From: a virus
Length of the DNA: 64,000 nt
Reading direction: 5' to 3' (one strand)
IMG/VR virus record: IMGVR_UViG_3300036766_000185
Coordinates: 32,182 to 96,181 of that record
Part shown: positions 7,024 to 42,265 of the stretch, in pieces
Layout: each line of letters begins with the position of its first letter
Numbering within the stretch: the first letter of the stretch is position 1
Program-made: the position numbers and the translations under genes
The notes under the pieces: generated by a model
Database searches by the model: none
What the model saw: the letters and a program-made list of their open reading frames with translations, nothing else
What the model was told of the DNA's origin: nothing

Positions 7024-7024
7024 A

Positions 7025-7940: not shown

Positions 7941-8488
7941 TGTACTTCTTGTCCTTCTACAGTCTTGTTTTCCTCAATCTTTACTTCGCGCTCTCCGTAC
8001 GTCTTTCCAAGAAAGTCAACTAGCTCTGTCCAGGAGCTAAAAATGCGCCCATGACGACGAATCACTCGCAGCAGCCAATAGCTCCATTCCTTCAACGGAG
8101 AGTAGCTTACAACGTACACAGGAATCCCTGTAACAATAACGGCGTGCCAAATCTCTGATATAGTCCCTGCTGACTGCTTACTGGGTTCATAATAAGCTAC
8201 TACCATATTGGCCTCTTCTACAAGCCTCTTGTCTCTGTCTATAAGTAAATCGACTAGATGATCGAAACGTTCCCAATTCTCTGCAGCTACGCACTCACTG
8301 ATCGTCTCTTTTACTGACTCCGGATTGCCTAACTCCTTAGCCTCATAGATTGTAGGATCAAGAGCAACTATGCCTAGCTTCTCTAGCAGCGGAGTTATTG
8401 TACGCCTCCAAGCTACCCCACCATCAGAGCTAGCCTGAATGCTGCCCGCTAGATAAGCTTTCATAGATGGAAGAGGCTCAGGAGCCAT
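7937..8488 (-). CDS. Nucleoside 2-deoxyribosyltransferase-like protein
   Basis: 183 residues. YLAGSI at 12-17 opens a Rossmann-like domain; EEANMVVAYY followed by SAGTISEIWHA puts Glu112 where the family has its nucleophile. Known members exchange bases on deoxynucleosides. MKAYLAG at residue 9 is an alternative start. Given the purine genes elsewhere it could process nucleosides, but exact substrates cannot be read from sequence. Confidence 0.7.
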   Translation of the reverse strand: MAPEPLPSMKAYLAGSIQASSDGGVAWRRTITPLLEKLGIVALDPTIYEAKELGNPESVKETISECVAAENWERFDHLVDLLIDRDKRLVEEANMVVAYYEPSKQSAGTISEIWHAVIVTGIPVYVVSYSPLKEWSYWLLRVIRRHGRIFSSWTELVDFLGKTYGEREVKIEENKTVEGQEVQ

Positions 8489-13930: not shown

Positions 13931-14139
13931 TTCTTAGCCCTGCACTTTCCACATTTTCCTTTGATGGTATAAGTCATACAATGACATGAATCACACAGAG
14001 AGATTTCATTTCGAAAAGCTTCGAACTTCTCTGGAGTCCAATCTTGTCGCTCGATCCACCCGCCTCCCATCGAGCACGTAGAAAGGTGCACCTCTTCTCC
14101 TGGTCTACTATGGGCCCCGCACTCTTTACACTTACTCAT
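13927..14139 (-). CDS. Zinc-finger protein (70 residues)
   Basis: MSKCKECGAH start at 14139 chosen because it overlaps the upstream stop. CxxC at the N-terminus (CKEC) plus C-x2-C pairs near the end (CDSC, CGKC) suggest two zinc sites. Function unknown. Confidence 0.55.
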   Translation of the reverse strand: MSKCKECGAHSRPGEEVHLSTCSMGGGWIERQDWTPEKFEAFRNEISLCDSCHCMTYTIKGKCGKCRAKK

Positions 14140-14278
14140 TCTCTTCTGCGCTCTGTTCTTCATCAAGCTCACTTATCTCTCCGCACTCTAGACACTCGAT
14201 TATGGTGATCAATTCAATCGAAGTCTGAACCTTTTCGATCTCTCTCACCAACTCAGATTGACATGAAGAGCAGTTCAT
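14132..14278 (-). CDS. Small zinc-ribbon protein (48 residues)
   Basis: Reads MNCSSCQSELVREIEK...IIECLECGEI followed by an acidic tail. Two CxxC pairs 24 residues apart make a plausible zinc ribbon. Its TAA overlaps the start of the next gene. Confidence 0.6.
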   Translation of the reverse strand: MNCSSCQSELVREIEKVQTSIELITIIECLECGEISELDEEQSAEENE

Positions 14279-14290
14279 TTTATTTGTCCC

Positions 14291-14770
14291 TTAGTATCTG
14301 TAATCATAGATTCTCTCTAGGCCGTAACGCTTCAATATCGAGCTATCAGTCAGATCATCTTCCATCAATTTTCTAAAGTCTACATACACTCCCGCACCAG
14401 CATATACACTCTGAGCAAAATCGTCGCATAAGATCTTTCCTGACCTGTATCCCACAGGAAGCTGCAGACATTTCAAAACGAAGCCAACCCAGTCAAAGTC
14501 TAAGATTTCATAGTTATACAGAGCAGCCCGCATCCAGGATTCATCAAGATAGGCGGCGTCAACTCGTCGCAAAATCACGATCTGTTTCTGTCTGTATTCG
14601 TTCATGTCGCCAACTCTGACGCCCTGCTTCAATGTCAATTCAAGAATTTCGTTGTCGTCTCGACACAGGAGGACGTGGTTCCAATAGAAGTGCAGAAGCT
14701 TGCGACTAAGCCAATGTCGCCACTTCGTACCTCTGGCTAACACTATATCTCCTGCTTTAACTTCAATCAT
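14291..14770 (-). CDS. Permuted NlpC/P60-like peptidase (YiiX-type)
   Basis: 159 residues. The order GDIVLARG, WNHVLLC (His) then KILCDDFAQSVY (Cys) matches circularly permuted NlpC/P60 papain-like enzymes, where His precedes Cys. Family members hydrolyse peptides or lipids; a cell-wall role is possible, no signal peptide is seen. Confidence 0.65.
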   Translation of the reverse strand: MIEVKAGDIVLARGTKWRHWLSRKLLHFYWNHVLLCRDDNEILELTLKQGVRVGDMNEYRQKQIVILRRVDAAYLDESWMRAALYNYEILDFDWVGFVLKCLQLPVGYRSGKILCDDFAQSVYAGAGVYVDFRKLMEDDLTDSSILKRYGLERIYDYRY

Positions 14771-22442: not shown

Positions 22443-22961
22443 CTAGCCTCTAAAGTCTGCTTCATTTTCTTTTCCTAAGCAACATTTTTTAAATTTCTTC
22501 TTGCTTCCGCACGGACAGAGAGTATTCCTCCCTATCTTTACTGATCGATATTCTTTATCAGCAATCGTAATCCCGTACAGATGATCAAGTTCATGCTGTA
22601 CTACAATCGCCTCTAGCCCTGACAGCGCGTACTCTTTGTCGTCTCCGTTCTTCACAACGACCTCGGTCGCCCGCTGCACACTTTTCGTTAATCCTGGAAG
22701 ACTCAAGCATCCTTCTGAGTGCACGACGAAATCAGACGCTTTGATGATCTCAGGATTCCAGAGATTTAGTTTAGTGTCTTTTACTCTCACGATCGCCGCT
22801 CGCTTTAGTACGCCGATCTGTACGGCAGCCAATCCAACTCCTGGAGTCTCTGAGTTTGTTAATTCAGTCTCCAATCTGTCAAAGAGCAGAGCTAGATTGT
22901 CTGCCTTTTCCACTGGGTCCGATATTCGATTTAAGAGCACTTTTGATAGTTCAATCATCAA
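22443..22961 (-). CDS. def: Peptide deformylase fused to SEC-C zinc motif
   Basis: 172 residues. All three deformylase motifs: GVGLAAVQIG (41-50), EGCLS (83-87, metal ligand Cys85) and QHELDH (122-127, His123/127, Glu124). Removes the formyl group from nascent proteins. The C-terminal ~30 residues carry a SEC-C site (C149, C151, C160, C161). The fusion is unusual, as is the shortened deformylase N-terminus. Confidence 0.87.
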   Translation of the reverse strand: MMIELSKVLLNRISDPVEKADNLALLFDRLETELTNSETPGVGLAAVQIGVLKRAAIVRVKDTKLNLWNPEIIKASDFVVHSEGCLSLPGLTKSVQRATEVVVKNGDDKEYALSGLEAIVVQHELDHLYGITIADKEYRSVKIGRNTLCPCGSKKKFKKCCLGKENEADFRG

Positions 22962-24694: not shown

Positions 24695-25227
24695 TACCGT
24701 TTCCCTCTTCGTGCTTTTGCTGTCGGAGCTTCTAATGTACTCTCGTATCCATACATCGCAAGGACGAATGCATCGGCTATGTCGTCTTGATCTATGTCAA
24801 TTTTATATTTGTAGTTAATAAAAGCTCGTACTTCTGGCTTTTTTACGTTTCCCTTACACCCTAATCTGCTTCTAGCTGAGGATGCATAGATCAAAATTGG
24901 TTTTGCTTCTTTTCGAGCAAGCCAGTCCCACAAAACTGCTCCCGACAATCTAGCTAGCAACTGAACTGTTCGATAGTTGTTTTTGAGAAAAACGTCCTCA
25001 ACGACCATCAAATCTACATCAGAGCGCGAGATAACAACGCTCAAATCACCAGCGATAACACGCATAACATCAAACTGATCAATACTTGCTTTAGTCTTGG
25101 CCTTCGTACCATACTTCTCTTTCAATCGCTCTACTGGGTTGATCACTCCCGACGCGAATATTTTTCCATCGTCGAGAATGCACCAACCCGTGCTTACGCT
25201 GCTGATATCAACCCCAAGAACTCTCAT
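24694..25227 (-). CDS. ruvC: RuvC-like Holliday junction resolvase
   Basis: 177 residues. RNase H fold with Asp7 (GVDISSVSTGW), Glu77 (VVEDVF) and Asp148/149/152 (DQDDIADAF). Cuts recombination or replication branches before packaging. Confidence 0.8.
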   Translation of the reverse strand: MRVLGVDISSVSTGWCILDDGKIFASGVINPVERLKEKYGTKAKTKASIDQFDVMRVIAGDLSVVISRSDVDLMVVEDVFLKNNYRTVQLLARLSGAVLWDWLARKEAKPILIYASSARSRLGCKGNVKKPEVRAFINYKYKIDIDQDDIADAFVLAMYGYESTLEAPTAKARRGKR

Positions 25228-25418
25228 TCTGCAGCCTGCAAAGTGTTGTCTGTTACAGCCTCATTAAGCGCTGATATGTCATCTTCATCTAACCAGAGAT
25301 CCAATTGCATCGCTCCCTCACAGTACACACGAATATGTTTCATCGGACGATTCGTTGTGGCTGCTAGGTAATTCTCCACGTCAAATTTAAAGCGTTTAGA
25401 TTCGTAGCGCGTGTTCAT
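25224..25418 (-). CDS. Hypothetical protein (64 residues)
   Basis: Acidic protein with CEGAMQLDLWLDEDD. No SD is seen; the start lies just after a long hairpin (25434-25496), so its translation may depend on the hairpin. ATGA overlap with ruvC. Confidence 0.5.
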   Translation of the reverse strand: MNTRYESKRFKFDVENYLAATTNRPMKHIRVYCEGAMQLDLWLDEDDISALNEAVTDNTLQAAE

Positions 25419-25420
25419 TT

Positions 25421-25498
25421 TTATTGAAGAGAAGAGACTAGAGGACTACAGGCAGCAGCACCGTCTATTGGGTGGCCCATCGTAGCCTCTAGTCTCAT
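25421..25498 (-). CDS. Possible tiny peptide (25 residues)
   Basis: MRLEATMGHPIDGAAACSPL and five more residues, starting 18 nt after the upstream stop, with GGAGG 12 nt before the ATG. It spans the long inverted repeat, so the peptide and the RNA structure may be linked or one may be a by-product. Tentative. Confidence 0.3.
   Translation of the reverse strand: MRLEATMGHPIDGAAACSPLVSSLQ
25434..25496 (-). other. Long RNA hairpin (inverted repeat)
   Basis: Arms 25434-25449 and 25482-25496 (GAGACTAGAGG plus CTAC) pair over ~15 bp with one extra base, enclosing 32 nt that contain a CACC/GGTG inner stem. It lies in the leader of the 64-residue gene. No T run follows on either strand, so it is not a simple terminator. 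Confidence 0.55.
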
Positions 25499-25516
25499 CT
25501 ATGCACCAGCCTCCGA

Positions 25517-25741
25517 TTACGCCAAACGCTCGATCACGACGTGCAGCAAACCCGCCGTAAGAGGGAGAGTAACAAGCCCCGGAACGATCGGGAGAACTGC
25601 ATGAATCAGCGGGGTTACTAAACCCGCAACGAACACCAGCGTCCCAACCGACAAAACTCGGTCAAGATCACTTGAATCATCATCCGTTCGCATCACTGAC
25701 GCGACTTTCTTCAAGATCTCCGGAAGAGTAACGTTCGCCAT
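25517..25741 (-). CDS. Small membrane protein (74 residues)
   Basis: Start at 25741 (MANVTLPEILKK) because GGTGA lies 8 nt upstream. Two hydrophobic segments (about 33-48 and 51-70) follow an acidic stretch. Function unknown. First gene behind promoter 25774-25803. Confidence 0.55.
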   Translation of the reverse strand: MANVTLPEILKKVASVMRTDDDSSDLDRVLSVGTLVFVAGLVTPLIHAVLPIVPGLVTLPLTAGLLHVVIERLA

Positions 25742-25773
25742 ATCTATGCTCACCCCCTCTCGTTTCTATTTTA

Positions 25774-25803
25774 AGTATACACTACCTGATGTATCGGTGT
25801 CAA
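25774..25803 (-). promoter_or_regulatory. Promoter, early family
   Basis: Minus strand TTGACA, 18-bp spacer starting CCGATACATC, TATACT, leader with ATAGAAAC. The -35 overlaps the end of the DUF5664 gene. Drives the membrane protein and probably ruvC and recA. Confidence 0.82.
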
Positions 25804-26153
25804 GTATTTGACTTCCAACGAATATCGTCAGTTCCAATGACGCGCTTCTCGAACATTATTAGCGTGAGACAGTGCCAGGCCGCGTGTGCTAGATGATGCT
25901 TTCCACTTTCGGGGTCATACGATTCTCCGTTTAGCCATAGCATTAAATGTCGATACAGCGCATTTACCGAAAGCGACCATTTATAGCCCTTACGATAATT
26001 TGTGGGGTCATATTTCTGTGCCCCATACCCATAGACGCTGCCTAGCTCACTCAGCGCTTCGGGCGGTGCCCATCCCAACTGAGATTCTTTGCTACCCTTA
26101 GCTCCGCCAGTCTTAGGGTCAACAACAATCGTCTCTACTACTCGACTTGTCAT
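25800..26153 (-). CDS. DUF5664 dATP/dGTP diphosphohydrolase-like protein
   Basis: 117 residues from the ATG at 26153. YGYGAQKYDPTNYRKGYKW, then NALYRHLMLWLNGE and HLAHAAWHCLTLI match the phage family named dATP/dGTP diphosphohydrolase (DUF5664). Members hydrolyse (d)NTPs to monophosphates; the S-2L MazZ enzyme produces dGMP for PurZ. That this protein is MazZ is inference, strengthened by the PurZ-like gene ~10 kb away. It overlaps the next promoter. Confidence 0.75.
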   Translation of the reverse strand: MTSRVVETIVVDPKTGGAKGSKESQLGWAPPEALSELGSVYGYGAQKYDPTNYRKGYKWSLSVNALYRHLMLWLNGESYDPESGKHHLAHAAWHCLTLIMFEKRVIGTDDIRWKSNT

Positions 26154-26170
26154 TAGGCGCTCGCTAGATT

Positions 26171-26809
26171 TCAAAGAACGTCCGCACCGTCGTCTAATGG
26201 ATTTAGCGTAGTCGCTGTCGTTGATTCATCTGACTCGGTTTCTGCTTCTTTCTCTGTCTCTTCCTTCTTGGGAGGAACTTGACCCTTGAGTAATGCATTC
26301 AGACGTTCAGGATTTATTTTGTAATATTCATCTAGGTCTACCTTCGCCAGAGTAAGCTCACCCTCGGACAACGGCTTCATATTCGGAGTAATTGTAACAG
26401 AGTAGCGCGTGTCCAGTTTCTCGCCCTTACGAGTAACGGCGATATCAAACTGCGTGGGATGCTTTTCCCACTCAACACTGGTCGCGTGAATCTGCCCCTT
26501 CTTCTCTTCGCTAAACTCCCAAATCTTAACTTTGCCGTCGCGACGATCTAGTACATTAACAATGTTCACTTTACGAATCACGTTTCCTGCAGCTTTGACG
26601 CGCTCATTATCTTCTCGCGCAACAGTAACGGGGTATCGCTTTCCGCCAACCTCAATTCTCGTCATGAAAACTTGCTTCGGCTCCATGTCTAGAATGCGCA
26701 CGGCAGCCGTCTCACCGTCCTTTAAGTTAAAGTACAAAACCTTACTGTACTCTGTCTGTCGTGCATCTGGTTCCCATGCCTTCATCGTTTCGTTTGTCTG
26801 TGCGCTCAT
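26171..26809 (-). CDS. ssDNA-binding-like protein, copy 2
   Basis: 212 residues. It shares the layout of the 216-residue protein at 27891-28541: LKDGETAAVRILDMEP, VNVLDRRDGKVKIWEF, and DIAVTRKGEKLDTRYSV. An acidic tail (ETEKEAETESDES) is typical of phage SSBs. It lacks the zinc Cys of copy 1. Binds single-stranded DNA by inference. Confidence 0.62.
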   Translation of the reverse strand: MSAQTNETMKAWEPDARQTEYSKVLYFNLKDGETAAVRILDMEPKQVFMTRIEVGGKRYPVTVAREDNERVKAAGNVIRKVNIVNVLDRRDGKVKIWEFSEEKKGQIHATSVEWEKHPTQFDIAVTRKGEKLDTRYSVTITPNMKPLSEGELTLAKVDLDEYYKINPERLNALLKGQVPPKKEETEKEAETESDESTTATTLNPLDDGADVL

Positions 26810-26818
26810 TCGACCCTC

Positions 26819-27259
26819 CTAAGCTACTATCTGTTCCGTCACTAATGTATCTAGAAGCTTCTTGACACTATTAATGTATTCCACCGTTCTGGCTAGCTGT
26901 CCCTGATAGAAATTAACAAGGCTTGTAAGTGATCTAACTGCATACGACGCTTCCCTCTCAGCCGATGCTGAGACAAACTTTTCTCCACTAGCTAATGTAG
27001 TTGACTTTGCGGTTAGATAACTCTCGGCCTCCTGATTATCAAGAATCGACTTCCACTTGTAAAACTGCGATGCAAAATAGCTATGTAGCGCGGTTGTTTC
27101 AGCCAATAGCTGTTGTAACTTAACTCTGGGAAAGAATCGATCGGCCAGCGCTCCTACCATCGTCTCTTTATCAATATCAGATAGTCGTTGCGCTAGCTTC
27201 GACGCCTCAGCGGGAATCAGAGCTTCATATTCAGACGACAAAGTTTCTAGACTGTTCAT
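26819..27259 (-). CDS. Helical protein (146 residues)
   Basis: Largely helical with heptads (KTIVG-like pattern not conserved); no family recognised. Sits between SSB-like and exonuclease genes, so a DNA-metabolism accessory is plausible. Confidence 0.5.
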   Translation of the reverse strand: MNSLETLSSEYEALIPAEASKLAQRLSDIDKETMVGALADRFFPRVKLQQLLAETTALHSYFASQFYKWKSILDNQEAESYLTAKSTTLASGEKFVSASAEREASYAVRSLTSLVNFYQGQLARTVEYINSVKKLLDTLVTEQIVA

Positions 27260-27891
27260 ACTTGCTCTCCCACCAGATGCCCGCCCTCCCAGGCGACCTC
27301 TCCAATAGAAAACTTGCTTCCAACTAGATCTCCCATCACGTATTCTAAGATGCCAAGATTCATATAGGCATCGTGTAAGGCATGATGAGGGAGAAGCGTC
27401 GGAGCGTATCCAAGAGCGAAGCTATGCCCAATCGTTTTCGCTGCGTGTTTAGTAGACTGAAACGATGTTTGATGCCTCACAGCGTCCATAAATATCAACG
27501 CATTTAGATCAATGCTTCTACGCCCAAACAGCGCCGCAGACTTTGGCAGCCATTTTCGTACAAATGGCATATCAAAGGCTCCCACGTTCAAACCGACAGG
27601 AATCAAATTGTATCTCTTCCCTTCTTTATAAAGAGGGGAATGCTTCGCCCAAGCATACAGTCTTTCATCCACTTGCTGAGCAGTCTCCAACTCAACTCGA
27701 TCTACTTTGGTAATATTCAGACCGTTTACTCTCATAGCTTCCGGACTAACCATCAGATTCTCATGTCTTACCTCAGCATAGAATGAACTCATATCAGACG
27801 CCATAACACATCCAATAGACAACAGAGAATGGATGGCGACTTCGCTGCCGCTGCTCTCAATATCTAAGGAAATCAAATCGAAGTCTAACAT
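27256..27891 (-). CDS. DEDDh 3'-5' exonuclease (DnaQ-like)
   Basis: 211 residues. SLDIESSG (Asp/Glu), LNVGAFDMPFV (Asp) and HHALHDAYMN (His, Asp) are the DEDDh motifs. A separate exonuclease from the one in the polymerase. Coupled to the SSB-like gene. Confidence 0.75.
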   Translation of the reverse strand: MLDFDLISLDIESSGSEVAIHSLLSIGCVMASDMSSFYAEVRHENLMVSPEAMRVNGLNITKVDRVELETAQQVDERLYAWAKHSPLYKEGKRYNLIPVGLNVGAFDMPFVRKWLPKSAALFGRRSIDLNALIFMDAVRHQTSFQSTKHAAKTIGHSFALGYAPTLLPHHALHDAYMNLGILEYVMGDLVGSKFSIGEVAWEGGHLVGEQV

Positions 27892-28541
27892 TAGATTGGT
27901 GCCTCCCCGTCTGAGATAGGAATTGCGTCTTCCTTCAGGCTACTAACCACGTCTTCATTAGGAGTAAATTCGCGAATCTTTCGACTAACTGCCTGGGATT
28001 TCTCTCGTAGATGCGTCATCTGCTCAGTTGCTGGCATAGGCTTCAACAATTCGTCTAGATCATATGTTGTAATCTTCTCTGTCAAAGCTCCGATTTCACC
28101 CGTTTTAGCCACTTGATATCGCGTGTCGTCCTTCGATTTGCCCGTGCGCACAATCGTTATATCGTATAAACGAGCATCTCCTGCAATCTTCATCAACGCC
28201 GCCAGGCCATCCTTGGCGTTTCCGTCTCTGTCTATGTATCCGACCAGCGCTCTTGAATAAACCATCACTTTGACTTTATTGTCCGAGCGATCTAAGACGT
28301 TGGTGTAGATTCGGAGAGTTTTGCTATCTCCACGATTGCAGAATAGACAATCATTCCCAGGACAGATAACCGGTTTCTTTCCCATACTTTCGAAGTGCAC
28401 GTAACGACACACCGGAGACTCGTCTAAAATACGCACTTTGTACGAACCCTCGTTAAGGCGCAGCAGAGGGAATCCAGCGCTGTCGCTCGTCGAGTCGGGC
28501 ATCCATTTCTCTAAGGCAGCCAAGTATTTATTTTCGTTCAT
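27891..28541 (-). CDS. ssDNA-binding-like protein, copy 1 (zinc-containing)
   Basis: 216 residues. GSYKVRILDESP, then CPGNDCLFC (three Cys, with C in PVC nearby as possible fourth ligand), NVLDRSDNKVKVMVY and YDITIVRTGKSKDDTRYQV. The layout recalls T4 gp32-type phage SSBs. AGGAGG and promoter 28564-28592 precede it. Confidence 0.65.
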   Translation of the reverse strand: MNENKYLAALEKWMPDSTSDSAGFPLLRLNEGSYKVRILDESPVCRYVHFESMGKKPVICPGNDCLFCNRGDSKTLRIYTNVLDRSDNKVKVMVYSRALVGYIDRDGNAKDGLAALMKIAGDARLYDITIVRTGKSKDDTRYQVAKTGEIGALTEKITTYDLDELLKPMPATEQMTHLREKSQAVSRKIREFTPNEDVVSSLKEDAIPISDGEAPI

Positions 28542-28563
28542 GCTTTCCTCCTCTTCTACAATT

Positions 28564-28592
28564 AGTATATCACACCGTGTTAGTGCTGTTAA
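28564..28592 (-). promoter_or_regulatory. Promoter, early family
   Basis: Minus strand TTAACA, 17 bp, TATACT with TGTGA extended -10; leader TTGTAGAAG. The -35 overlaps the last codons of the polymerase gene. Drives the SSB-like operon. Confidence 0.75.
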
Positions 28593-31096
28593 TTATTCTC
28601 TTTGGCATACTTGAGATTTCCAAGAGATTTCCCATACTTTACTTCCACCGCAAGAGGCACAATAATTCCAGGCATAGCTCTGGTCATTTCTCGTTCCATA
28701 ATCTCCGCAGCTTTCTTCCAATCGCTCTCGCGTACCTCAGTAACCAGTGAATCATGAACAGGCAATACGAGCCGCGCTGTTGGACACTCTGCTTTGAAGG
28801 CCATAGCAATACGATTCATTGCCGCATAAAGTATGTGTGCTTCAAGATTTTGTATCGGGAAATTCACTGCCGATCGCTCTGCATGACCTCTCATCTTCTG
28901 ATCAGGAGACGTAATTTCTGGCAATCGACGACGCGCTCCAAAGAGACTTATTACAAATCCGCGCTGTCTAGCCTCTTGAATCTTTCCTTGTGCATACTGT
29001 CTCGCTTTTGGACAGTTGGCAAAAAAGCGGGTGATATACACCTGTGCTTTCTCTTCACTAATTTTGAAGTGAGAGGCGATTTTCCACGCCGACGCTCCCA
29101 TAATAGTCGCGTACGTGAACGCCTTAGCATTTTGTCTCTCTTCTTTTGTAATTTGATCTTCTGGCTTATTAAAGATCATTGATGCTATAACCTTGTGCAC
29201 GTCGCGCTTTTGTCTAAGATCTTCAATCATTTTCTGATCGTTCATGTAGTTTACCCAAATCCTGAATTGAATTTGCGCATAGTCTGCAGCCACCAAGACA
29301 CAACCCTCGTCAGCCACAAAAATATCTCTCGCTCGACTAGCTATGGTTGCTTTGCCACTTTCATCTTTTTCATCACGCGCAATATTCTGCAGATTGGGAT
29401 TACGAGAGGCTAAGCGGTGAATCTCAGTTCCATACAGTAGAAACTTGCTGTGAATACGTCCATCTTTTCGAATAAACGCTTCGAAATTCTCACCGTAGGC
29501 CGACACCAGATGCTCATATGACCTCTTCTCTGTGATCATTCTTGGAATTTCGTGCACACCAGCAAGCTCTTTAAGCGTGATTTCATCTGTCGATGCATTC
29601 CCCGTTTTAGTCTTTTTAACCGGCCTGAGCTTGAGAATATTGAACAGAATCTTTCGCAATTGTACTGGAGAACTGTAATTAATCTCATCTAGTTCCAGCA
29701 TAACTTTGGCTTGCGCGGTAACAGGATGCGCCTGCAGTTGCTTGTCAATATCCTCGGCGTACGATTGATACTCTTGACGAGTGGCATGAAGTCTCTCAAT
29801 ATCAATCTTCACCCCTGCCCATTCTACGTCGATCAGCGTATTCTGCACCGGCATCATGATACGTCTGAACACGGGCATTAGATTTTGTGTGTCTAGCTCT
29901 TTTAAGAACAATCTACGCAATCGTCCGGTAGCGTCCACGTCAGCAGCCGCATAGGGCCATAGCACGTCGAAAGGAATCTTAGCAAAATCGACGGTCTTCT
30001 TGGCGTATGTCTTGTCTCCCTCAATTACGAGCTTAGTCTTCCATTCCTCGATTTCTGCATTGTACATACCCAAGTCTGTGAACTCTAGCGCCAACTCTTT
30101 AAGGCCATGACTTCTTGCATTCTCATTTAGGAGATGGTGCATGATAATCGTATCGTATGCGAAGTTCTTCACTTGAATCCCAATTGCTCGTAGAAAGGGA
30201 ATATCAAACGCTCCTAGATGTGCAGATTTTGACACGTCAGACTCAAAGAACGTCTTAATCTCTTGCATCACGTCTGCTTGACGCTCACTCCACCATTCTT
30301 TTCCGTCTACGAAAATCGGCACTACATACGCCACGCGCTCGGCAGGGGAGAACCCAATCGAAATAATGCGATGCTTATCTACATCAAGCCCTGTCGTTTC
30401 AAGGTCGAAGTCTACCGTCTCTGCCGCTCGTAGCTCTGCAAGAGCCGCATCCAGATCCTCAAGCGTTTTGACAAGTTGATAGTCCGTAGGCAGTCTCTTA
30501 GTCTCCAGCGATTTTCCTTCAAGCATCAACTTAATCATTCGCAAGTCCTTGACAAATTGATCTTTCAGTCGTGTATCTCCAGGATTGCGAAGAATATACG
30601 ATGGATGATAGGTCGGTACCAGTTTACAATTAAAATCCTCACTAGAGAAGATAGATCCTCGCAAGCGTGTAATACCCGCTTTATCAAGAAAGACCTTTAG
30701 CGCTGTCGCTCCAAGTAATACTATGATCTTAGGTTGCACTTCTCGAATTTCTCTGATTAGATACGACGCATCACCAACGATCTCACTCATGGTTGGGACA
30801 CGATTCTCAGGAGGGCGCACATGATACACATTTGTAATATAGACCTGCTCACGGTCAAATCCGGCCTCAATAAGACATTTCGTAAGCACCTGCCCAGCAG
30901 GACCAACAAATGGTTTTCCTTGCGCATCTTCCTCAGCGCCAGGAGCTTCACCAATAAACATGAGTTCAGCAGGCGTAGGACCCGCGCCACAGACATATCG
31001 TGCATTTGGGATAGGGAGCGCACCTTCTGGGCACTCCTTGAATACTACGCTAATTATAGGTTCTGCTATCTTTTTAGTGTTCATTCTCGTAGTCAT
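28589..31096 (-). CDS. DNA polymerase family A with N-terminal UDG family 4 domain
   Basis: 835 residues in three parts. Residues ~35-190: family 4 uracil-DNA glycosylase (GEAPG 49-53, Asp57, HPSY 164-167), but the usual CxxC Fe-S pair is incomplete. ~225-400: 3'-5' exonuclease (Asp231/Glu233, Asp298, Tyr382/Asp386). ~410-830: polymerase; motif A DYAQIQFR (605-612), motif B R654, K658, Y662, M666, G667, motif C HDS (781-783). Compared with E. coli Pol I these put Gln at E710, Tyr at F762 and Met at Y766. UDG-polymerase fusions occur in some phages. Replicates phage DNA; ATGA-coupled to the primase gene. Confidence 0.9.
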
Positions 31097-33402
31097 GATA
31101 CCGTCACAGCATCCTTTATGGGATGTGCTATGCTGTGATACATTTGCATCTTCTCTTTGCTACATTCTACGAGCGTGTGAAACGAATCGTAAAAATCGTA
31201 ATACAGTCGTCCTCTAAAGGACGACGTACGATTTTTAGCACCAAAGTTAATCTCAACAATGGGCATCCACTCTCCGCTAGCTTGATTTATAACTTTCAGC
31301 TTAGCGGTTTCTACGCCTCTCGTATTCAGTTCATTGTACATCACACCGACCACATCCGCGTCGTATCCAAAGTCCGAACTTTCTTTAATGTCATCGATTG
31401 TGGGAAGTTTGTTGCTGTCGCGCTCAGGTCGACGCAATTCTACAGTAGCTAGAATCGGCACGTTATATATGTTTCTCCAGCGTTTGATAGCGTCAGAGAT
31501 CTGTATAGAGTCCTCTCGTCTGTTGTTGCTAAATTTCTGCGGCACTCGAATACGATGCAAACTGTCGATGATCACTACCAGTTGTTTCTCTCCAGCTATT
31601 TGCTTATACATACTGATGTATCGTTCAACATCAGTAATATCTCTGATACTAGTCTCATCCTTAATAGCGAATGAATTGGAAAGACTGTGTAAATATTTCA
31701 GAGCATCGTCGTACTTTGCTTTTAGACGTGCTCGTTCCTCCTCAGTGTAGGCCTCGTTTAGCTCAATGCGATACTTGGGATTTAGCATTGAGTTGATCTC
31801 TAGCCCACAACGCATGGCTAGCAGCCGAGCGATTACCCCATCTTCCGATTCATCAAGAGACAAGCATAGAATTGACGCCTTTTCAGGATTTGATTCGAGA
31901 ATATTCATCGCGAGATTTCGCACAAACGCACTCTTGCCCGTTCCCTGATAACCAGCAAAAAGATATACTTGATTCTGTAATCCGTCCATAACGTCTGTAA
32001 AAATTGGGTAACCGCAGGACAGTCCCAGTCGTAATCCGCGCATTTTAGCTTGCTGCTCAAAGCGCAGCAGCGACTGTCCTAACAGCGACTTCTCTTTAAT
32101 CATATCTGCTTCGACGATGAGAGTCGTATCACCTTCTCTAGCGATAATGTCGTCGAACGCCTCTGTAATCACCTCCAAGCGAACATCGAGTTCCTTAGCC
32201 ATACGCTTGCACATCTGCTCTTGATCGATTCTATCTCTCTCTAGCAAGATGGCACGGAGCGCTCGGTCACGATGTGCTTTGTCCTTTGATTCCTTAAACT
32301 TCTCCAAATAATGCTCAAACATCGACCGGCGGCCTGATGTTAGCAAGAAGTCGTGTTTATTTAAGCACTCATCAGCATCCTTACAGTCGTCGCGCACTTT
32401 CAAATATAATGATATGCCGTCGGACGACTTGACGCGCCGCATAATAACCTCTTCGCCAGCTTGCCCACTTGCGTCGTTGTCAAGACATAATTCAATGTCC
32501 TTCACGCCCTTTCGCAGAAGCGCCTTTATATGCTCGTCGGTGAAGTTTACCCCGCATAGGCCCACCACATTTTTAATTCCCTTTTTCCATAGAGTAACAA
32601 CGTCTGCAAATCCCTCCACTAAAATTACACTATTCTCGTTATTCTTGATCTGATTGAGATTATACAATACGTCTGACTTTTTATACACAGGAGTGTACGA
32701 GGAGTTAATATAAGATTCTACTCCCTGCTTTTCGGCCTCCACTCGATTCAATAGAGTACGACTAGCAAATCCAACCACGCGTCCATACACATCCTTAATT
32801 GGAAACAGCAATCGTCGATTAAGCAACTTTTCAGAGACTAGTCCTGCATCAACGAGCAATTCACTTTCATAGCCTCTTTTGGATAGCGCCTCGATAAGTT
32901 TCTCATACGAGCAATAACCCAATAAAAATTCGCCAGCAACACTATCCCAGCCACGCGCCCTAACGTACTCCATAGTCGTCTCTGATTTGCGCAGCCCCAG
33001 ATGAGCAAGTTCGGCTGCTGCTTTCAGAACTTCGTAGATTTTATTACGTCGCGCTTCTTCTGGACTTAAATCTTCATATTCGATCTGCACTTTAAGAAGC
33101 TCAGCCAGATACAGTAGCGTGTCTTGCACCCAGGTGGGACCGTCCTTTGGCTTGTCCTCTAAAAGTCGCGCTGCGTCGAAGATATCACCTTTTTCAAGAC
33201 AGGCATGACACTTAAATCGCGTATCGTCCGGGAAGAATCCGCAGCTAAAATTGATATCGTTGTTCGAGTGAAATACTCGATTGGGACACTGAAACATCTG
33301 TCCATTTGACGAGAACTGAGTCTGTTTAAGCTCTAGATATCGACCCAAGCCTTGTCTAACAACAGATTTCAGACCGTTCATGTCTTTTACTTTGCGCAGC
33401 AT
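31093..33402 (-). CDS. Primase-helicase fusion (T7 gp4-like)
   Basis: 769 residues: CHC2 zinc site (C39, H45, C65, C68), TOPRIM primase ([10 protein letters not shown] and [10 protein letters not shown]), then a RecA-fold DnaB-type helicase with Walker [11 protein letters not shown] and Walker [10 protein letters not shown]. Unwinds and primes at the fork. AGGAG precedes its ATG; the first gene behind promoter 33419-33448. Confidence 0.9.
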
Positions 33403-33418
33403 TTTTTCTCCTATCTCT

Positions 33419-33448
33419 AGTATACACTACCTAAGATATCGGTGTCAA
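33419..33448 (-). promoter_or_regulatory. Promoter, early family
   Basis: Minus strand TTGACA, 18-bp spacer starting CCGATATC, TATACT, short leader AGATAGGAG. Drives primase-helicase and polymerase. Confidence 0.85.
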
Positions 33449-33453
33449 GATCT

Positions 33454-34248
33454 CTAGACCTTAGGCAAGAACCAGCCCATCGAAACTCCACTCGATTTCG
33501 AAGCATCCTCAGCAGCACATCGATCTTGAAAGCTACACAAATGACACTTCACATAAGTTGGGTCAAAGTTTTTGGCTTGAATCTTCATCCAATCCGCATC
33601 GATAGCCTCTATCAATTTTTTGTGATCAAGCTCAGTTCTCGAAGCCCACTCTACCATTTTGTGTCTAGGGTATAAAAATCCAATTTTGCTAGCTCTCAGA
33701 TTGAGCACTCTGAGTACCGCTAAATCGTATATTGTCACCTGATCGTTGGCGAGCAGTTCGGCTTCGGTGAGTTTGTACACTCCCGTTTTGAAGTCTATAA
33801 TCCAAATTTCTCCACCAACTTCAACGATTAGATCAACGATCCCTATCAAATCGTACGTTCTTCCTGATGCTGCTACTACAGAGACTGAAAATTTCCACTC
33901 AGTCTTAATTGGCGCTTTTAAGATGCCAACTTCACCAGCAAGCACGTGAAATTTTGACAGGATAGTTCTGCCCATGCTTACCCATCTTCTTTCTGATTCA
34001 GCGCTGGGAAATTGATATTTCTCTCGTTTTAAATACTCAGAGAAGCTAGCAGGCCAAAGATCAAGAATGAACGGAAGATCAAAGTTTTTTGCCAGATACA
34101 TCTTGTTTATTACTTTATGACAGGCTGACCCAACAATAGTAGAGATCATCTGTGGTCTATCAGGAGCAACACGATCCACATACTTATATCGATACTGACG
34201 AGGACACCATTCAAACGTAGACTTGCTTGAATAGCTGACTCTTTCCAT
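33454..34248 (-). CDS. Cas4/RecB-like PD-(D/E)XK nuclease with Fe-S cysteines
   Basis: 264 residues. Cys15 (WCPRQYR), His (GSACHKV), Asp (LIGIVDLI), IIDFKTG, and a C-terminal Cys triplet (CHLCSFQDRC) reproduce the Cas4-type order with a four-Cys cluster. Such enzymes resect DNA ends. No CRISPR array is present in the window. Confidence 0.78.
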   Translation of the reverse strand: MERVSYSSKSTFEWCPRQYRYKYVDRVAPDRPQMISTIVGSACHKVINKMYLAKNFDLPFILDLWPASFSEYLKREKYQFPSAESERRWVSMGRTILSKFHVLAGEVGILKAPIKTEWKFSVSVVAASGRTYDLIGIVDLIVEVGGEIWIIDFKTGVYKLTEAELLANDQVTIYDLAVLRVLNLRASKIGFLYPRHKMVEWASRTELDHKKLIEAIDADWMKIQAKNFDPTYVKCHLCSFQDRCAAEDASKSSGVSMGWFLPKV

Positions 34249-34787
34249 TATATGTCCGAGGCTAGCACTCTAAGACGACTATACAAAGTTCTCAGAATCG
34301 GATATCTGCGTAATTTCTCAACCAGCACCGATACTCTAGTTTTACTGATGTGCAGCCTCTTAGCGATTTCTGTAAGAGAAGTCCCACAGCACAGTTGATC
34401 AAAAATCACGATGTATTTGCTAGCGATATGCTCATCATTGAGAGACGCAACAATTTGCTTTCTAAGAATCGCTCTAATCTTTAACAGCATCTTCTTGTAA
34501 TCGTCTTTCTCGGTATTTAATTCTCTAAAGTTCATTGAACAAATCAACTGAGGAGCCATGAAAATCTTTTTATTTTGCTGCTCGTCTTCTATCATATTAG
34601 CGTCTAGACTCACACACCCAGACATGGCCCTCTGAACGGCTGCTTTATTGATATTAGTAAGTTGAGGAACGTGTACAGACGCTCCAGATTGCGATATGCC
34701 ACGACCCCAACTTCTCCCGTCGCGAGACTGAGCATCCTCGCGCAATTTTCGCAGCAATCTATCGTATCCGTCAGGATGTATGGTCAT
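34248..34787 (-). CDS. HTH protein, sigma region 4-like
   Basis: 179 residues. C-terminal part CGTSLTEIAKRLHISKTRVS forms an HTH like sigma-70 region 4 or terminase small subunits. N-terminus is unusual for a sigma factor. Start at 34787 or a TTG at 34793. May direct phage transcription. Confidence 0.5.
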   Translation of the reverse strand: MTIHPDGYDRLLRKLREDAQSRDGRSWGRGISQSGASVHVPQLTNINKAAVQRAMSGCVSLDANMIEDEQQNKKIFMAPQLICSMNFRELNTEKDDYKKMLLKIRAILRKQIVASLNDEHIASKYIVIFDQLCCGTSLTEIAKRLHISKTRVSVLVEKLRRYPILRTLYSRLRVLASDI

Positions 34788-34789
34788 TT

Positions 34790-35041
34790 TCAAAACGGGA
34801 TTTGTACTCTTACTCCGCCCTCCTGCTCTCGCTGATTAGCATAGCCATAGAACAAGATTCGCCTTCTTGGAGAAGCATGAGCGTATTTTTCCTTCATCTG
34901 TCTATTAAGAATGTCAATATATCGCTCATTTAACACTATGAGATTGCTCCTTGAGGTGGTTTCGTAAGATTTTCCAATAGATAAAGCCGCACAGGAGCTT
35001 GCACTCAGACTAAGAGCAATTAGCAAACAGAGTCTATTCAT
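34790..35041 (-). CDS. Putative lipoprotein (83 residues)
   Basis: Start at 35041 (MNRLCLLIALSLSASSC) from GGAG spacing. The hydrophobic leader ends in a lipobox-like SASSC, then a basic domain. Size would suit an outer-membrane spanin, though no partner is clear. Confidence 0.5.
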   Translation of the reverse strand: MNRLCLLIALSLSASSCAALSIGKSYETTSRSNLIVLNERYIDILNRQMKEKYAHASPRRRILFYGYANQREQEGGVRVQIPF

Positions 35042-35309
35042 TTTTATCTCCGAGAGCCAGATCAATTAAAACATCGTTTATATCATTTCTATCGATTGAC
35101 TGACGATTCTTATCCATAGTGTGCACGATAGACTCTTCTAGCTCTGCACAGTTAGCAACTTCTTCAACTCTATAGCATTCGCTCAGTTTCCCGCTATATT
35201 CTTTTGCTCTTAAGGGAGTCAGCCATTCCATAGCAGTCTTCCCTTGTAACGGGCCTCTCGCTACAGTAACTCTATATAATCTCTGATGTGATACCGTCTT
35301 TGTTTTCAT
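35034..35309 (-). CDS. Hypothetical protein (91 residues)
   Basis: Start at 35309 (MKTKTVSHQRL), which overlaps the stop of the tiny Cys-rich gene (ATGA); upstream starts have no SD. Helical, acidic C-terminus. Confidence 0.5.
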   Translation of the reverse strand: MKTKTVSHQRLYRVTVARGPLQGKTAMEWLTPLRAKEYSGKLSECYRVEEVANCAELEESIVHTMDKNRQSIDRNDINDVLIDLALGDKNE

Positions 35310-35383
35310 CTGCATCGCCAATCACATGGTGGAAAGCACTTTTTCCCGCAGTAGACACATGAGCAAGAGATTATGTCCGACAT
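35306..35383 (-). CDS. Tiny Cys-rich peptide (25 residues)
   Basis: MSDIISCSCVYCGKKCFPPC followed by DWRCR: six Cys in 25 residues, likely binds metal. It overlaps the upstream gene by 13 nt and the next start by 4 nt. No SD, so tentative. Confidence 0.4.
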   Translation of the reverse strand: MSDIISCSCVYCGKKCFPPCDWRCR

Positions 35384-35526
35384 TTCGTTTTAGTCTGTCG
35401 TCTAAATAGTCGATCACATCTAAGACACACCGATATCTTCCAGCCACACAGCGTCATAGGACCGCACATAAGCTCATTGTGCTTGCAAAATGTCTTTCTG
35501 AACCAGTTAACAATTTTTCGTCTCAT
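35371..35526 (-). CDS. Zinc-binding protein (51 residues)
   Basis: Start at 35526 (MRRKIVNWFRKTFCKHN), GGAAC upstream. Cys at FCKH, MCG, LCG and VCLRC form possible metal sites. A longer frame to 35646 lies in the upstream gene and is rejected. Confidence 0.5.
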   Translation of the reverse strand: MRRKIVNWFRKTFCKHNELMCGPMTLCGWKISVCLRCDRLFRRQTKTKCRT

Positions 35527-35839
35527 CTTCAAAGTTCCTGCTAAACAAGCGTCTAGCTTCCAGCCAGTCCTTAACTCGTGAATCGTCCATTTCGAAATCT
35601 TCACCATGTTTAAGAGTCGCAATAATTTCTCGCTTAAACTCGTCATACCATGCTAGGGCTTCGTCTACAGATGCTCCAAAATGTAGCAGTAGAGCAAGAG
35701 CAAGCTGCGACGGTCCACTTCCCAAATAGCCCCATTGAAAACCCGTGGGAGAATGATCTACCACTTTGCGACTAGCCTCCAAATCTAAGGGCTTGCCGTC
35801 TACGTAAACCATGTTTTCTTGGGTGATTCCCGTAATCAT
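35507..35839 (-). CDS. Conserved-type phage protein (110 residues)
   Basis: VDHSPTGFQWGYLGSGPSQL and LALALLLHF resemble the DUF6166-like phage family (HSPxGFxWGYxGSGPxQLALA). Role unknown. ATGA overlap with the PurZ-like gene upstream. Confidence 0.6.
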   Translation of the reverse strand: MITGITQENMVYVDGKPLDLEASRKVVDHSPTGFQWGYLGSGPSQLALALLLHFGASVDEALAWYDEFKREIIATLKHGEDFEMDDSRVKDWLEARRLFSRNFEDETKNC

Positions 35840-36912
35840 TCTATTCTCCTCACCCAGTTCTGAAAGCCTGTTGATACGTACACGATTGGAGTTGCTACGT
35901 CCTTTTCCAACTTAGCGATCTGCTCTTCTGCTGCGGCGTCCAAAATCTGACTATTATGCAAGTCAGGTCTTAAGTAATCAAAGAAACTGAGAGCGATAGC
36001 ATCTGGCTCGCAGGCCTCGACCATCGCCTCTACTAGTTCTGGATTCCACTTTGCGATTCTGCGAATACGCTTGGTCACCGTAGTTCTCTCTGGCTGTATG
36101 TACCCGCCAGTTTGCGCAGCCAATTCGTCCCAAGTAACTTCTTCTCCCATGTACCCTGAGGGGCCAGCAACGCGAATTGGAAATGTTCGCATCACAGCTA
36201 TAGTAACGTAGTTCACATTGTTTGTCAATCCAACATCGTTCAACACCTGAGGAGGAGTAATATCTCTACTTGTGGCCGTTGGGTAAAATGGCCCATTGAG
36301 GCTTAGACCCCAGCCCTGTGTACTCTCCACGACAATTGCCGTGTTTCTATCTCGATATTGCTTTCGAAGCTCTTTGCCTACATCTCCGATGTACGACTGC
36401 AAAATCTCAACATTCTTAGCAACCGTAGCGCGGCGCATAACTTTGTCAGCTTGAGCCGCTCCAACTCCTTCTCCGGTGCTACCAATGCCTTTAACTAGAT
36501 CGTGCTCTGCTTCTCGGTGTTTTTCTTCGACTATTGTAACATGACGATCAATCATCAGGTGCTCTTGACAATAGTTAGCGCCCATGTGTGCGTCTACTAG
36601 ATCTATCTCTCTGTGTAGAACTTCAAGATCAATCAGCGCACCAGGTCCGATGTAAAGCTTAGCTTTGTCGTTGAACCACCCACACGGAATCTGACGCATA
36701 GCATAGACTCGTCCATCAACTATAATCGAATGTCCAGCTTGCGGCCCGCCAGACCGTACAACGGATAGATTCTGAAGCCCCGTTGCAGCGTTAATGTTCA
36801 CTCTGTTCTTAGGGTCTACGAGCCAAGCGATATAAGCCCCCTTACCTTCGCTTCCGAAGGCTCCGCCAATCACTATCCACACCGAACTCTCATAGAGCGA
36901 TGCACGTCTCAT
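35836..36912 (-). CDS. purZ: PurZ-like (adenylosuccinate synthetase family) enzyme
   Basis: 358 residues, short like PurZ and archaeal enzymes (bacterial PurA is ~430). The P-loop region reads GGAFGSEGKGAY at 16-27; S21 replaces the Asp13 of E. coli PurA, which is the reported feature of PurZ. GGPQAGH (His61) matches the PurA His41 site; later STGEGVG and ESTQGWGLSL follow the family order. PurZ ligates Asp to dGMP toward dZMP (2-aminoadenine). GGAGG precedes the start. It could instead be a divergent PurA; the Ser and length favour PurZ. Confidence 0.75.
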   Translation of the reverse strand: MRRASLYESSVWIVIGGAFGSEGKGAYIAWLVDPKNRVNINAATGLQNLSVVRSGGPQAGHSIIVDGRVYAMRQIPCGWFNDKAKLYIGPGALIDLEVLHREIDLVDAHMGANYCQEHLMIDRHVTIVEEKHREAEHDLVKGIGSTGEGVGAAQADKVMRRATVAKNVEILQSYIGDVGKELRKQYRDRNTAIVVESTQGWGLSLNGPFYPTATSRDITPPQVLNDVGLTNNVNYVTIAVMRTFPIRVAGPSGYMGEEVTWDELAAQTGGYIQPERTTVTKRIRRIAKWNPELVEAMVEACEPDAIALSFFDYLRPDLHNSQILDAAAEEQIAKLEKDVATPIVYVSTGFQNWVRRIE

Positions 36913-38411
36913 TTTTCCTCCTGTTTTGCTTCCACTGTCTGTTTTGATTCTTCTATCTGTCTAAGAATGTTTATGTCATTAAAATATATGTAATACGCTA
37001 AGTCAGAGCGCTTGATCTTCTTAATCGTTTCTGCCAGGAACTGCAAGTCAGACTTCGAATAAGTTTCAAGTTGCAGCACAGTCTGAATCAGTTCTTTTGT
37101 TGCTTGTCTACCCTTGGCATCGCCCGTGCTATGCAGGGCTGAGACTCGACTATACTCTCGCATTAAGAGATTCACCAGCGGAGATAGCTGCGCTGCAGTT
37201 AGAATTTCTAGCTTCGTCAGATTATAGCGCGTAGACGTGATCAACTCTACATCGAAATGTAGCGCTCGCAATAGCTCCATAATTGCCCGATAGCGAGCAG
37301 CAGTATACGTCTTACGCATGATCATGACTCTTTGCATTCCCGCTCTCTCAAAGAAAGGATTGTATCGTGCCATCACGGCCATGGTCTCAACAACCGACTT
37401 TGCGTAGGGAGAGTTTAGATAGTTACGCACGATTTCTGCTCCTAATCCTATCCCCCTAAACTTTGGCGTAATAACCACGCGAGAGATCACCTCTACCTCC
37501 TCGTTTAGCTGTTTATAATTTCTCACATATCGCTTGTTGGTAATAAAGTTGCGCTCCTGACTTTCAAGCATCGGATAACGAGTAATCAGCGCTCCGATTA
37601 CAATCCCGTTTAGCTTAGCTGAGTACACACTTCGTAAAGCGACGGGAGCTTTCTCATTTTTATAGTGAAACGCAGCCAACCCTGACTGTTCATAGTCGTT
37701 GTACGTCCCTAGCTCATACTTAATGTCGTCTAGCATTGAAAACTTGCGTGAAGTTATTGTTCTGTGCTCGACGGTTCCGCTTGCTCCGTAGCTTTTCTGC
37801 ACCAGTACATCGGGATTCAAATCTGCTTCTAAGTCAGTATGCGTCGTCGCTACGATTAATGTTACTCCAAGTTTTCTAGCTAGTTTCTGTATACTGTAGG
37901 CGATCACTTTCGCCGTTTCACGATCAAGAGTAGCACAGAACTCATCTATCATCCATACCTTTAAATTTGTGTCGATCATTCTTGCTATTCTGTAGCGATA
38001 GGCTTGTCCATCACTAAGCTGCGAATATTGTCGTAACATCAAGAAAGCGTCTCCAAGACCGGCACGTGCTAGAATTTCTAATGCTTCTTCAACAGTCCTT
38101 CCCACGCTGTCTATTAGGACGTCGCTACCATCTATCATGAGCGTATTTAGAGATATAACTCCGTAATCTTGACTGATTTTCTTATACAAGTGTCTCAGCA
38201 ACGCAGATTTACCTCCGCCGCTATCACCAGTAATATACACCACATCTCCAGTATTGATTGTTAAAGGCTGACGATCGTACACCACGAATTCCTTCTCTTC
38301 ATCAATTCCTAAGCCAAATGCCTCTGCAACGACCACCGTACGATCAGTAATCGCAGCACTCGTCTTGAAAGAGACGCTAATCAGACCATCGAACAGTGGC
38401 ATTTTGTCCAT
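36909..38411 (-). CDS. ABC-type ATPase fused to GNAT acetyltransferase
   Basis: About 500 residues from the ATG at 38411. ABC part: Walker A GDSGGGKS, signature-like LSDGQAYRYRIAR, Walker B VWMIDEFCATLD, H-loop ATTHTDL. Then a GNAT domain with VISRVVITPKFRGIGLGAEI. The ABC part is soluble with no membrane partner. It overlaps the PurZ-like gene by 4 nt. Acetyltransferase folds (such as Mom) modify DNA bases in phages, so base modification is a reasonable, unproven role. Confidence 0.75.
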   Translation of the reverse strand: MDKMPLFDGLISVSFKTSAAITDRTVVVAEAFGLGIDEEKEFVVYDRQPLTINTGDVVYITGDSGGGKSALLRHLYKKISQDYGVISLNTLMIDGSDVLIDSVGRTVEEALEILARAGLGDAFLMLRQYSQLSDGQAYRYRIARMIDTNLKVWMIDEFCATLDRETAKVIAYSIQKLARKLGVTLIVATTHTDLEADLNPDVLVQKSYGASGTVEHRTITSRKFSMLDDIKYELGTYNDYEQSGLAAFHYKNEKAPVALRSVYSAKLNGIVIGALITRYPMLESQERNFITNKRYVRNYKQLNEEVEVISRVVITPKFRGIGLGAEIVRNYLNSPYAKSVVETMAVMARYNPFFERAGMQRVMIMRKTYTAARYRAIMELLRALHFDVELITSTRYNLTKLEILTAAQLSPLVNLLMREYSRVSALHSTGDAKGRQATKELIQTVLQLETYSKSDLQFLAETIKKIKRSDLAYYIYFNDINILRQIEESKQTVEAKQEEK

Positions 38412-38412
38412 T

Positions 38413-38640
38413 TTACCAGTTTGCGGGCGCGTGTCCCCACAGTTCAAAGGGAGCGTACGCTTTGTACCCTGTTTTTGTCTTTTTCAGCGCGACATACGCT
38501 TCGTTCATCAAGTCTTCGTGCTTAATGTCGGCGTTGAAGAGTAGTTCAGCCGCTTTCTCAGAGGGCACAAGATAGTAGAAATTCCCTCTCTTGAGAACAT
38601 CAACGTCGCCCTTAAACACTCCTACAATCTCAGTTTTCAT
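38413..38640 (-). CDS. Hypothetical protein (75 residues)
   Basis: Mixed protein (VDVLKRGNFYYLVPSEKAAE). No family recognised. 1-nt gap to the ABC-GNAT gene. Confidence 0.5.
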   Translation of the reverse strand: MKTEIVGVFKGDVDVLKRGNFYYLVPSEKAAELLFNADIKHEDLMNEAYVALKKTKTGYKAYAPFELWGHAPANW

Positions 38641-42188: not shown

Positions 42189-42265
42189 TGGTGGGCTAGG
42201 CGGGATTTGAACCCGCAGCCTAGAGATTAGAAGTCTCTCGCTCTATCCATTTGAGCTACTAGCCC
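42189..42265 (-). tRNA. tRNA-Arg (TCT)
   Basis: 77 nt with encoded CCA. Acceptor GGGCTAG/CTAGCCC, D arm GCTC/GAGC, anticodon stem AGAGA/TCTCT with loop CTTCTAA (anticodon TCT), T arm GCGGG-TTCAAAT-CCCGC. Reads AGA codons, which are common in these genes. Confidence 0.93.

Follow-up and report, generated by a model that had tools for sequence, protein, structure and literature searches.

A divergent PurZ-type synthetase in a new viral subclade and a probable host-assisted 2-aminoadenine pathway in an uncultured tailed phage

Results

A synthetase gene in a tailed-phage genome

We analysed a 64,000-nucleotide stretch of DNA (hereafter the window), namely bases 32182-96181 of the 96,181-bp virus record IMGVR_UViG_3300036766_000185 from an uncultured phage, and in particular a gene for a synthetase that resembles PurZ of phages with 2-aminoadenine (Z) in their DNA. 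In known Z-phages, PurZ is paired with dATP-removing enzymes and usually also with a DpoZ polymerase. A first-pass annotation of the letters alone had placed genes for a PurZ-like synthetase, a DUF5664 protein and an atypical PolA here, and all three were found at those positions with matches far beyond chance. The portal and head-maturation-protease genes lie in the left part of the record, beyond the window; the source is therefore a tailed phage. The features of main concern, the last of them outside the region first annotated, are as follows.

35836-36912, minus strand: PurZ-type (2-amino)adenylosuccinate synthetase (358 amino acids (aa); PF00709, PHROG 1211, tree, residues and fold)
28589-31096, minus strand: uracil-DNA-glycosylase (UDG)-exonuclease-PolA fusion polymerase (835 aa; PF03167 2e-37, PF01612 3e-19, PF00476 3e-96)
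30539-30988, minus strand: family-4 UDG domain of the polymerase (residues 37-186; PF03167)
25800-26174, minus strand: DUF5664, a dATP/dGTP diphosphohydrolase-like protein (124 aa, lone domain; PF18909 E=3e-29)
7937-8488, minus strand: nucleoside-deoxyribosyltransferase (NDT)-fold protein, a DmtZ-like candidate (183 aa)

The nearest relative of the window phage is a largely colinear IMG/VR record of 93,921 bp, the one behind contig L004 (hereafter the sister record). About 100 open reading frames (ORFs) are common to the two, mostly in the same order, and the end of one record matches the start of the other, which suggests two near-complete genomes opened at different points. Absences common to both therefore carry weight. 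The synthetase is 62% identical between the two records, above most of the genes that they have in common.

Active-site residues of the synthetase

The synthetase matches Pfam PF00709 (E=5.5e-33) and PHROG 1211, '2-aminooxy adenylosuccinate synthetase' (E=6e-64). Its residue 21 is the Ser of the motif GAFGSEGKG (codon at 36850-36852) and aligns with D13 of Escherichia coli PurA, the catalytic Asp of the canonical enzyme, just as the first-pass annotation had pointed out. The aspartate loop reads TTVT (ERTTVTKRIRR), as in PurZ-type enzymes, with Thr at position 298; the PurA loop starts instead with Gly298 and ends in TGR. The pair Ser13 and Thr298 is thus common to PurZ, PurZ0 and the window synthetase, whereas PurA has Asp13 and Gly298. 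On alignment with E. coli PurA, His41, Lys16, Arg143, Gln224 and Thr239 are retained, and one odd residue is a Gln that replaces Asn38. Short length, which had also been taken as a mark of PurZ, fails as one: the PurA of Pyrococcus horikoshii, with its Asp, is even shorter (339 aa).

At the base-recognition position, the ATP-using PurZ enzymes of phiVC8 and S-2L have Asn or Gln (N297, Q308; PMC8342488). The window synthetase has Asp there (D312, E. coli D333), as do PurA and PurZ0, and this residue therefore suggests that its cofactor is GTP. PurZ0 is reportedly a GTP-using enzyme. In PMC12884076 the nucleotide preference of PurZ0 is worded the opposite way.

An AlphaFold model of the synthetase (predicted local distance difference test score, pLDDT, 92) retrieved PurA, PurZ0 and PurZ structures with Foldseek. 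As a means of deciding between PurA and PurZ the comparison was indecisive, archaeal PurA and PurZ0 receiving similar scores.

A new viral subclade adjoining PurZ0

Phage records matching the synthetase number 209, with identities of 25-37% among the matches listed, and scans of viral contigs recovered closer relatives, including the sister protein, L098 (48%) and L099 (46%), besides further ones. The main phylogeny was a careful IQ-TREE analysis of 65 proteins, accompanied by a quick tree of 99 rows. In the IQ-TREE analysis canonical PurA splits off at 100/100, followed by P. horikoshii PurA and then by all the Ser-type proteins. The window synthetase pairs with the sister protein at 100/99, is joined by L098 and L099 at 100/95 and by L100-L102 at 100/95, and this group sits inside a 29-row, all-viral clade (100/95) that holds the PurZ0 proteins of Ghobes, Wayne, FireCastle and Hiyaa, which it joins at 98/94. 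The quick tree likewise sets it beside PurZ0. PurZ of the phiVC8 type falls in another part of the tree, where Ser-type proteins from DPANN archaea are its neighbours (100/98). By its placement, the window synthetase forms with the proteins of L004 and L098-L102 a new viral subclade adjoining PurZ0, and the PurZ-like reading of the first-pass annotation, for which such a tree had been proposed as a check, is borne out to the extent that the protein groups with viral PurZ0-type enzymes, apart from canonical PurA.

Ser-type paralogues in cellular genomes

Relatives of the synthetase are encoded at at least 378 loci in the bacterial and archaeal genomes scanned. Of the 80 that were read, all have Ser at the catalytic position apart from one sequence with an unrecovered start; because the patterns used in the scan were biased towards Ser, the result speaks for the wide existence of such proteins and not for their frequency. 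Of ten cellular genomes examined, eight encode a canonical PurA besides the Ser protein. We therefore rejected Ser13 as sufficient to prove a PurZ, given that 35 cellular paralogues in the tree have it too, and because many bacteria and archaea carry such PurA-like paralogues, the Ser signature by itself cannot call DNA that contains Z (Z-DNA).

This wide cellular family (contigs L018-L097), with GSEGKG and Ser for the catalytic Asp, usually occurs beside canonical PurA. It includes a longer form of 530-600 aa (L056:4422-6041, L039, L045, L064, L097) with about 190 extra N-terminal residues, which in L056 give weak matches to P-loop (kinase- or AAA-like) models. Among phages, the 168-kb Flavobacterium phage MaF61 (L013) encodes a 447-aa Ser-type synthetase (GSSGKG) together with an adenylosuccinate lyase (13052-14395 and 24736-26091); its synthetase forms a long branch near phiVC8-type PurZ in the quick tree.

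A UDG-PolA polymerase with three altered active-site residues

In the polymerase a family-4 UDG domain comes first, at the N-terminus, followed by the 3'-5' exonuclease and then by PolA; the UDG domain scores 156 bits on TIGR00758 (UDG_fam4; cut-off 125.3). Q610, Y662 and M666 occupy the positions of E710, F762 and Y766 of E. coli PolA, in agreement with the three unusual residues announced by the first-pass annotation. Among the UDG-PolA enzymes compared, E710Q together with Y766M occurs only in the window and sister polymerases, both of which also have F762Y. Nearly all of the roughly 45 others with readable motifs have Glu710 (one has Asp and one row is misaligned); none has Met766, and Leu appears there in one distant group.

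Position 766, in helix O, is the only change common to both DpoZ clades, as Phe (PMC8599892), and the window polymerase has Met in its place. It falls below both NCBIfam models (DpoZ_1, 123 bits against a cut-off of 500; DpoZ_2, 45 against 350), and its full-length matches are the SPO1-like, Manatee Spring and KimJongPhill enzymes. On the strength of the curated models and of this full-length likeness to UDG-PolA enzymes, we rejected its membership in DpoZ. Two other purZ-bearing contigs have Asn (L146) and Thr (L164) at 766, so that the aligned sequences suggest repeated change at this position in purZ-bearing viruses (Phe in DpoZ, Met in the window, Asn and Thr in these two). Many purZ-bearing viruses keep canonical E710/Y766 polymerases; Hiyaa, which encodes PurZ0, retains Tyr766, and its polymerase also lies under the DpoZ_2 cut-off. 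The association of the residue pattern with Z is suggestive and involves few independent events, and an adaptation of the window polymerase to Z is possible.

In contig L123 (9959-13484), purZ is followed directly by a PolA that scores 300 bits to the window polymerase and has canonical E710/F762/Y766.

DUF5664 is not a core pathway gene

The DUF5664 protein scores 101 bits on PF18909 (cut-off 27), has an intact DUF5664-1 hydrolase domain and is 42% identical over 96 aa to the DUF5664 protein of Wayne, which hydrolyses dATP, dGTP and dUTP (PMC12884076). In SH-Ab 15497, a homologous domain forms part of a fusion with MazZ. What the first-pass annotation had called a dATP/dGTP diphosphohydrolase-like protein thus holds as regards the DUF5664 domain, and the MazZ part (DUF550/PF04447) is missing. 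The closest relatives, at about 50%, belong to 29-34-kb phages of Cutibacterium and Propionibacterium, genera not found among the purZ matches listed. Phage records with DUF5664 outnumber those with purZ (768 against 209), and the majority of phages encoding it lack purZ. About 10 of the 80 viral loci with purZ have DUF5664 nearby, and it lies near UDG-PolA in contigs in which no purZ was found (L226, L230, L268, L270). The colinear sister record lacks it. For its absence from the sister, its greater abundance and its occurrence near UDG-PolA without purZ, we rejected DUF5664 as a core gene of the pathway; it may help in the window phage, and its membership is doubtful. DUF5664 also stands beside PolA in L146 (5985-8929) and L164 (6778-9464), the contigs with Asn and Thr at 766.

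Absent partners and an NDT-fold candidate

Neither the window record nor the sister record encodes DatZ (PF12917 HD phosphohydrolase; S-2L and phiVC8 positive in the same search), MazZ (DUF550/PF04447; S-2L and SH-Ab positive), DutZ (dUTPase PF00692; Ghobes and Wayne positive) or PurB (PF00206; same searches, with positive controls). A phage-encoded PurB was accordingly rejected. That no HD-type DatZ was recognised had been remarked before for the region, and the same is true of the whole 96,181-bp record.

The NDT-fold protein matches PF15891 (2e-4) and PF05014 (5e-4), both under cut-off and about as weakly as does the proven DmtZ of Ghobes. A hidden Markov model (HMM) built from DmtZ proteins found it as the sole ORF in the record, at 26 bits. 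The gene is present in the sister record at 59%, and in the purZ-bearing contig L117 a relative at 32% is encoded some 3.5 kb away from purZ. Foldseek with the low-confidence model of the protein (pLDDT 61) gave NDT, DNPH1, MilB and related proteins as the top 36 matches (E=1.2e-4); against PDB sequences there was no significant match, its support being the fold comparison and the HMM. In a remote, profile-level comparison with the catalytic set of DmtZ, Tyr and Glu are supported, Asp12 is replaced by Gln and Asn77 by Asp. Since NDT-like genes also occur in phages in which no purZ was found (G025), a link of this protein to Z is only a hypothesis. At 6106-8488 the gene forms a cluster with those for a trypsin-like protease and a transglutaminase-like protein and with a small ORF, and the order of the four is kept in the sister record.

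Neighbouring genes

31093-33402, minus strand: primase-helicase, partner in the replication module (DNAG_N, Toprim and DnaB_C by Pfam; 57% in the sister genome)
35507-35839, minus strand: DUF6166 protein, overlapping the end of purZ (PF19663 1e-22)
36909-38447, minus strand: ABC-type ATPase protein, its own end overlapping the start of purZ (PF00005 6e-12; PHROG 293/886)

The DUF6166 protein is not conserved in the sister genome and has no match in 80 viral purZ loci; the ABC-type ATPase has no match in other purZ loci and is present in other phages. Both were rejected as pathway genes, as neither is linked to purZ in the 80 loci. In other viral contigs (L118, L119, L120, L122, L124, L125, L131, L169 and others), a dUTPase-like gene of the DutZ type follows directly after purZ. 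This arrangement occurs also outside the PurZ0 clade, and the pairing of purZ with dutZ is therefore broader than the PurZ0 phages. The window further contains a peptide deformylase with a SEC-C motif (22443-22961) and a single tRNA-Arg(TCT) (42189-42265).

Discussion

The family of the synthetase, its active-site residues, its phylogenetic place, the gene content of the record and the conservation in the sister are established. We propose, at a probability of roughly 0.6, that the enzyme is of the PurZ type, belongs to a new viral subclade and serves a stripped-down variant of the Z pathway that, with help from the host, would yield partial or full Z-DNA. We infer the substrate of the synthetase, each reaction step and the presence of Z in virion DNA. 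Most likely, the synthetase would convert dGMP and aspartate, probably with GTP, to N6-succino-2-amino-dAMP (dSMP), from which PurB and kinases of the host would make dZTP, and the UDG-PolA polymerase would incorporate Z across from T, so that Z would replace adenine in part or completely. Supply of dGMP and removal of adenine would fall to DUF5664 (in the window phage only), possibly to the NDT-fold protein with dAMP as its substrate, and to host enzymes; this reliance is proposed because no DatZ, MazZ, DutZ or PurB is encoded.

Several observations weigh against this proposal. On the curated NCBIfam PurZ model, NF038379 (cut-off 300 bits), the synthetase reaches 235.9 bits and its relatives from L004, L098 and L101 reach 225-241, whereas the known PurZ and PurZ0 proteins of Ghobes, Wayne, Hiyaa, phiVC8 and S-2L all pass with 346-397; the archaeal PurA model scores the synthetase equally (240 bits, cut-off 368). 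The best structural match is an archaeal PurA, with PurZ0 narrowly behind. Arg303, which in PurA contacts the 2'-oxygen of IMP, is kept, and Ghobes, Wayne, FireCastle, Hiyaa and phiVC8 have Lys there. The cellular PurA-like paralogues count against Ser13 as diagnostic, no dATP-removing enzyme is common to the two genomes, and the polymerase residues shared by the window and sister phages amount to a single evolutionary event. An auxiliary PurA-like synthetase acting on IMP or GMP, which would raise purine supply or make another succino-purine in a phage with ordinary DNA and with DUF5664, the NDT-fold protein and the polymerase unrelated to it, would accommodate the retained Arg303, the even profile scores, the archaeal fold match and the Ser-type paralogues that accompany canonical PurA in bacteria without known Z-DNA. 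It is nevertheless unlikely in our judgement: the synthetase has lost the Asp that acts as catalytic base at position 13 in PurA, its loop is of the PurZ type, the tree joins the synthetase to PurZ0 and not to PurA, and the dGMP-using PurZ of phiVC8 likewise has Ser. Taken together, the comparisons identify a genuine but divergent PurZ-type enzyme, which should work like PurZ and yet lies outside the curated PurZ family.

How far Z would replace adenine is a question within the proposed pathway. dZTP might be made while an indiscriminate polymerase is used and dATP stays in the pool, so that adenine would be replaced in part and Z would serve as a partial shield against nucleases that act at adenine sites. 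The lack of DatZ, MazZ and DutZ in both genomes, the failure of Klenow polymerase to discriminate A from Z (PMC8342488) and the canonical E710/Y766 polymerases of many purZ-bearing viruses speak for such partial substitution; the specific changes shared by the two polymerases, one of them at the position at which DpoZ differs, and the DUF5664 protein, which could lower dATP in the window phage, speak against it, and we hold it as a tentative sub-case with a less than even chance of being right. A more ambitious version, in which a third independent route to Z-DNA would combine the new PurZ subclade with a UDG-PolA made Z-selective by E710Q/F762Y/Y766M and an NDT-fold enzyme replacing DatZ, MazZ and DutZ, strikes us as quite unlikely. 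That the locus holds the exact PurZ, MazZ and DpoZ trio of the known pathway, the outline drawn by the first-pass annotation, is highly improbable: DUF5664 does have homologues in the MazZ-fused domain of SH-Ab 15497 and in the Wayne enzyme, which is active, but PF04447 is absent, both DpoZ models fail widely, and DUF5664 is missing from the sister and common without purZ.

Two colinear phages of near-genome length carry a well-placed PurZ-type enzyme and none of its usual partners, and could therefore reveal either how few genes suffice for Z-DNA or an alternative set of genes for it. The change in the polymerase at the position that marks DpoZ gives a specific prediction on Z selectivity.

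Comparison with known systems

The closest known counterpart is PurZ0 of Arthrobacter, Gordonia and Microbacterium phages (PDB 7vf6), which shares with the window synthetase Ser13, the TTVT loop, D333, the viral clade and 33-37% identity. PurZ0 has GSEAKG where the window has GSEGKG, and the window enzyme differs further in Gln38 and Arg303; PurZ0 proteins score 346-374 bits on the curated PurZ model and the window synthetase lies below its cut-off. All 98 PurZ0 genomes carry dutZ (PMC12884076), which the window record lacks. PurZ of phiVC8, S-2L and SH-Ab agrees in Ser13, Thr298 and fold, and differs in its separate branch, its GSTGKG motif, Asn or Gln at 333 and its DatZ and MazZ partners. 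The short PurA of P. horikoshii (PDB 5k7x/2d7u) resembles the window synthetase in length, fold, D333, R303 and profile score, but has Asp13 and a TVTGR loop and branches outside all Ser-type proteins.

The UDG-PolA polymerases of SPO1, KimJongPhill and the Manatee Spring phage have the same UDG-exonuclease-PolA order as the window polymerase and 26-32% identity over the full length; they have E710, F762 and Y766 where the window enzyme has Gln, Tyr and Met. DpoZ (phiVC8-like and Wayne-like) shares with it the PolA family and a replaced Y766 (Phe in DpoZ, Met in the window), yet in the members compared has no UDG domain and keeps E710, in contrast to the UDG-fused window enzyme with Gln at 710. 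DmtZ of Ghobes and Wayne, finally, appears to have in common with the NDT-fold protein the NDT superfamily fold and, among its catalytic residues, Tyr and Glu; in the window protein Gln stands for Asp12 and Asp for Asn77, the sequence likeness being at the profile level.

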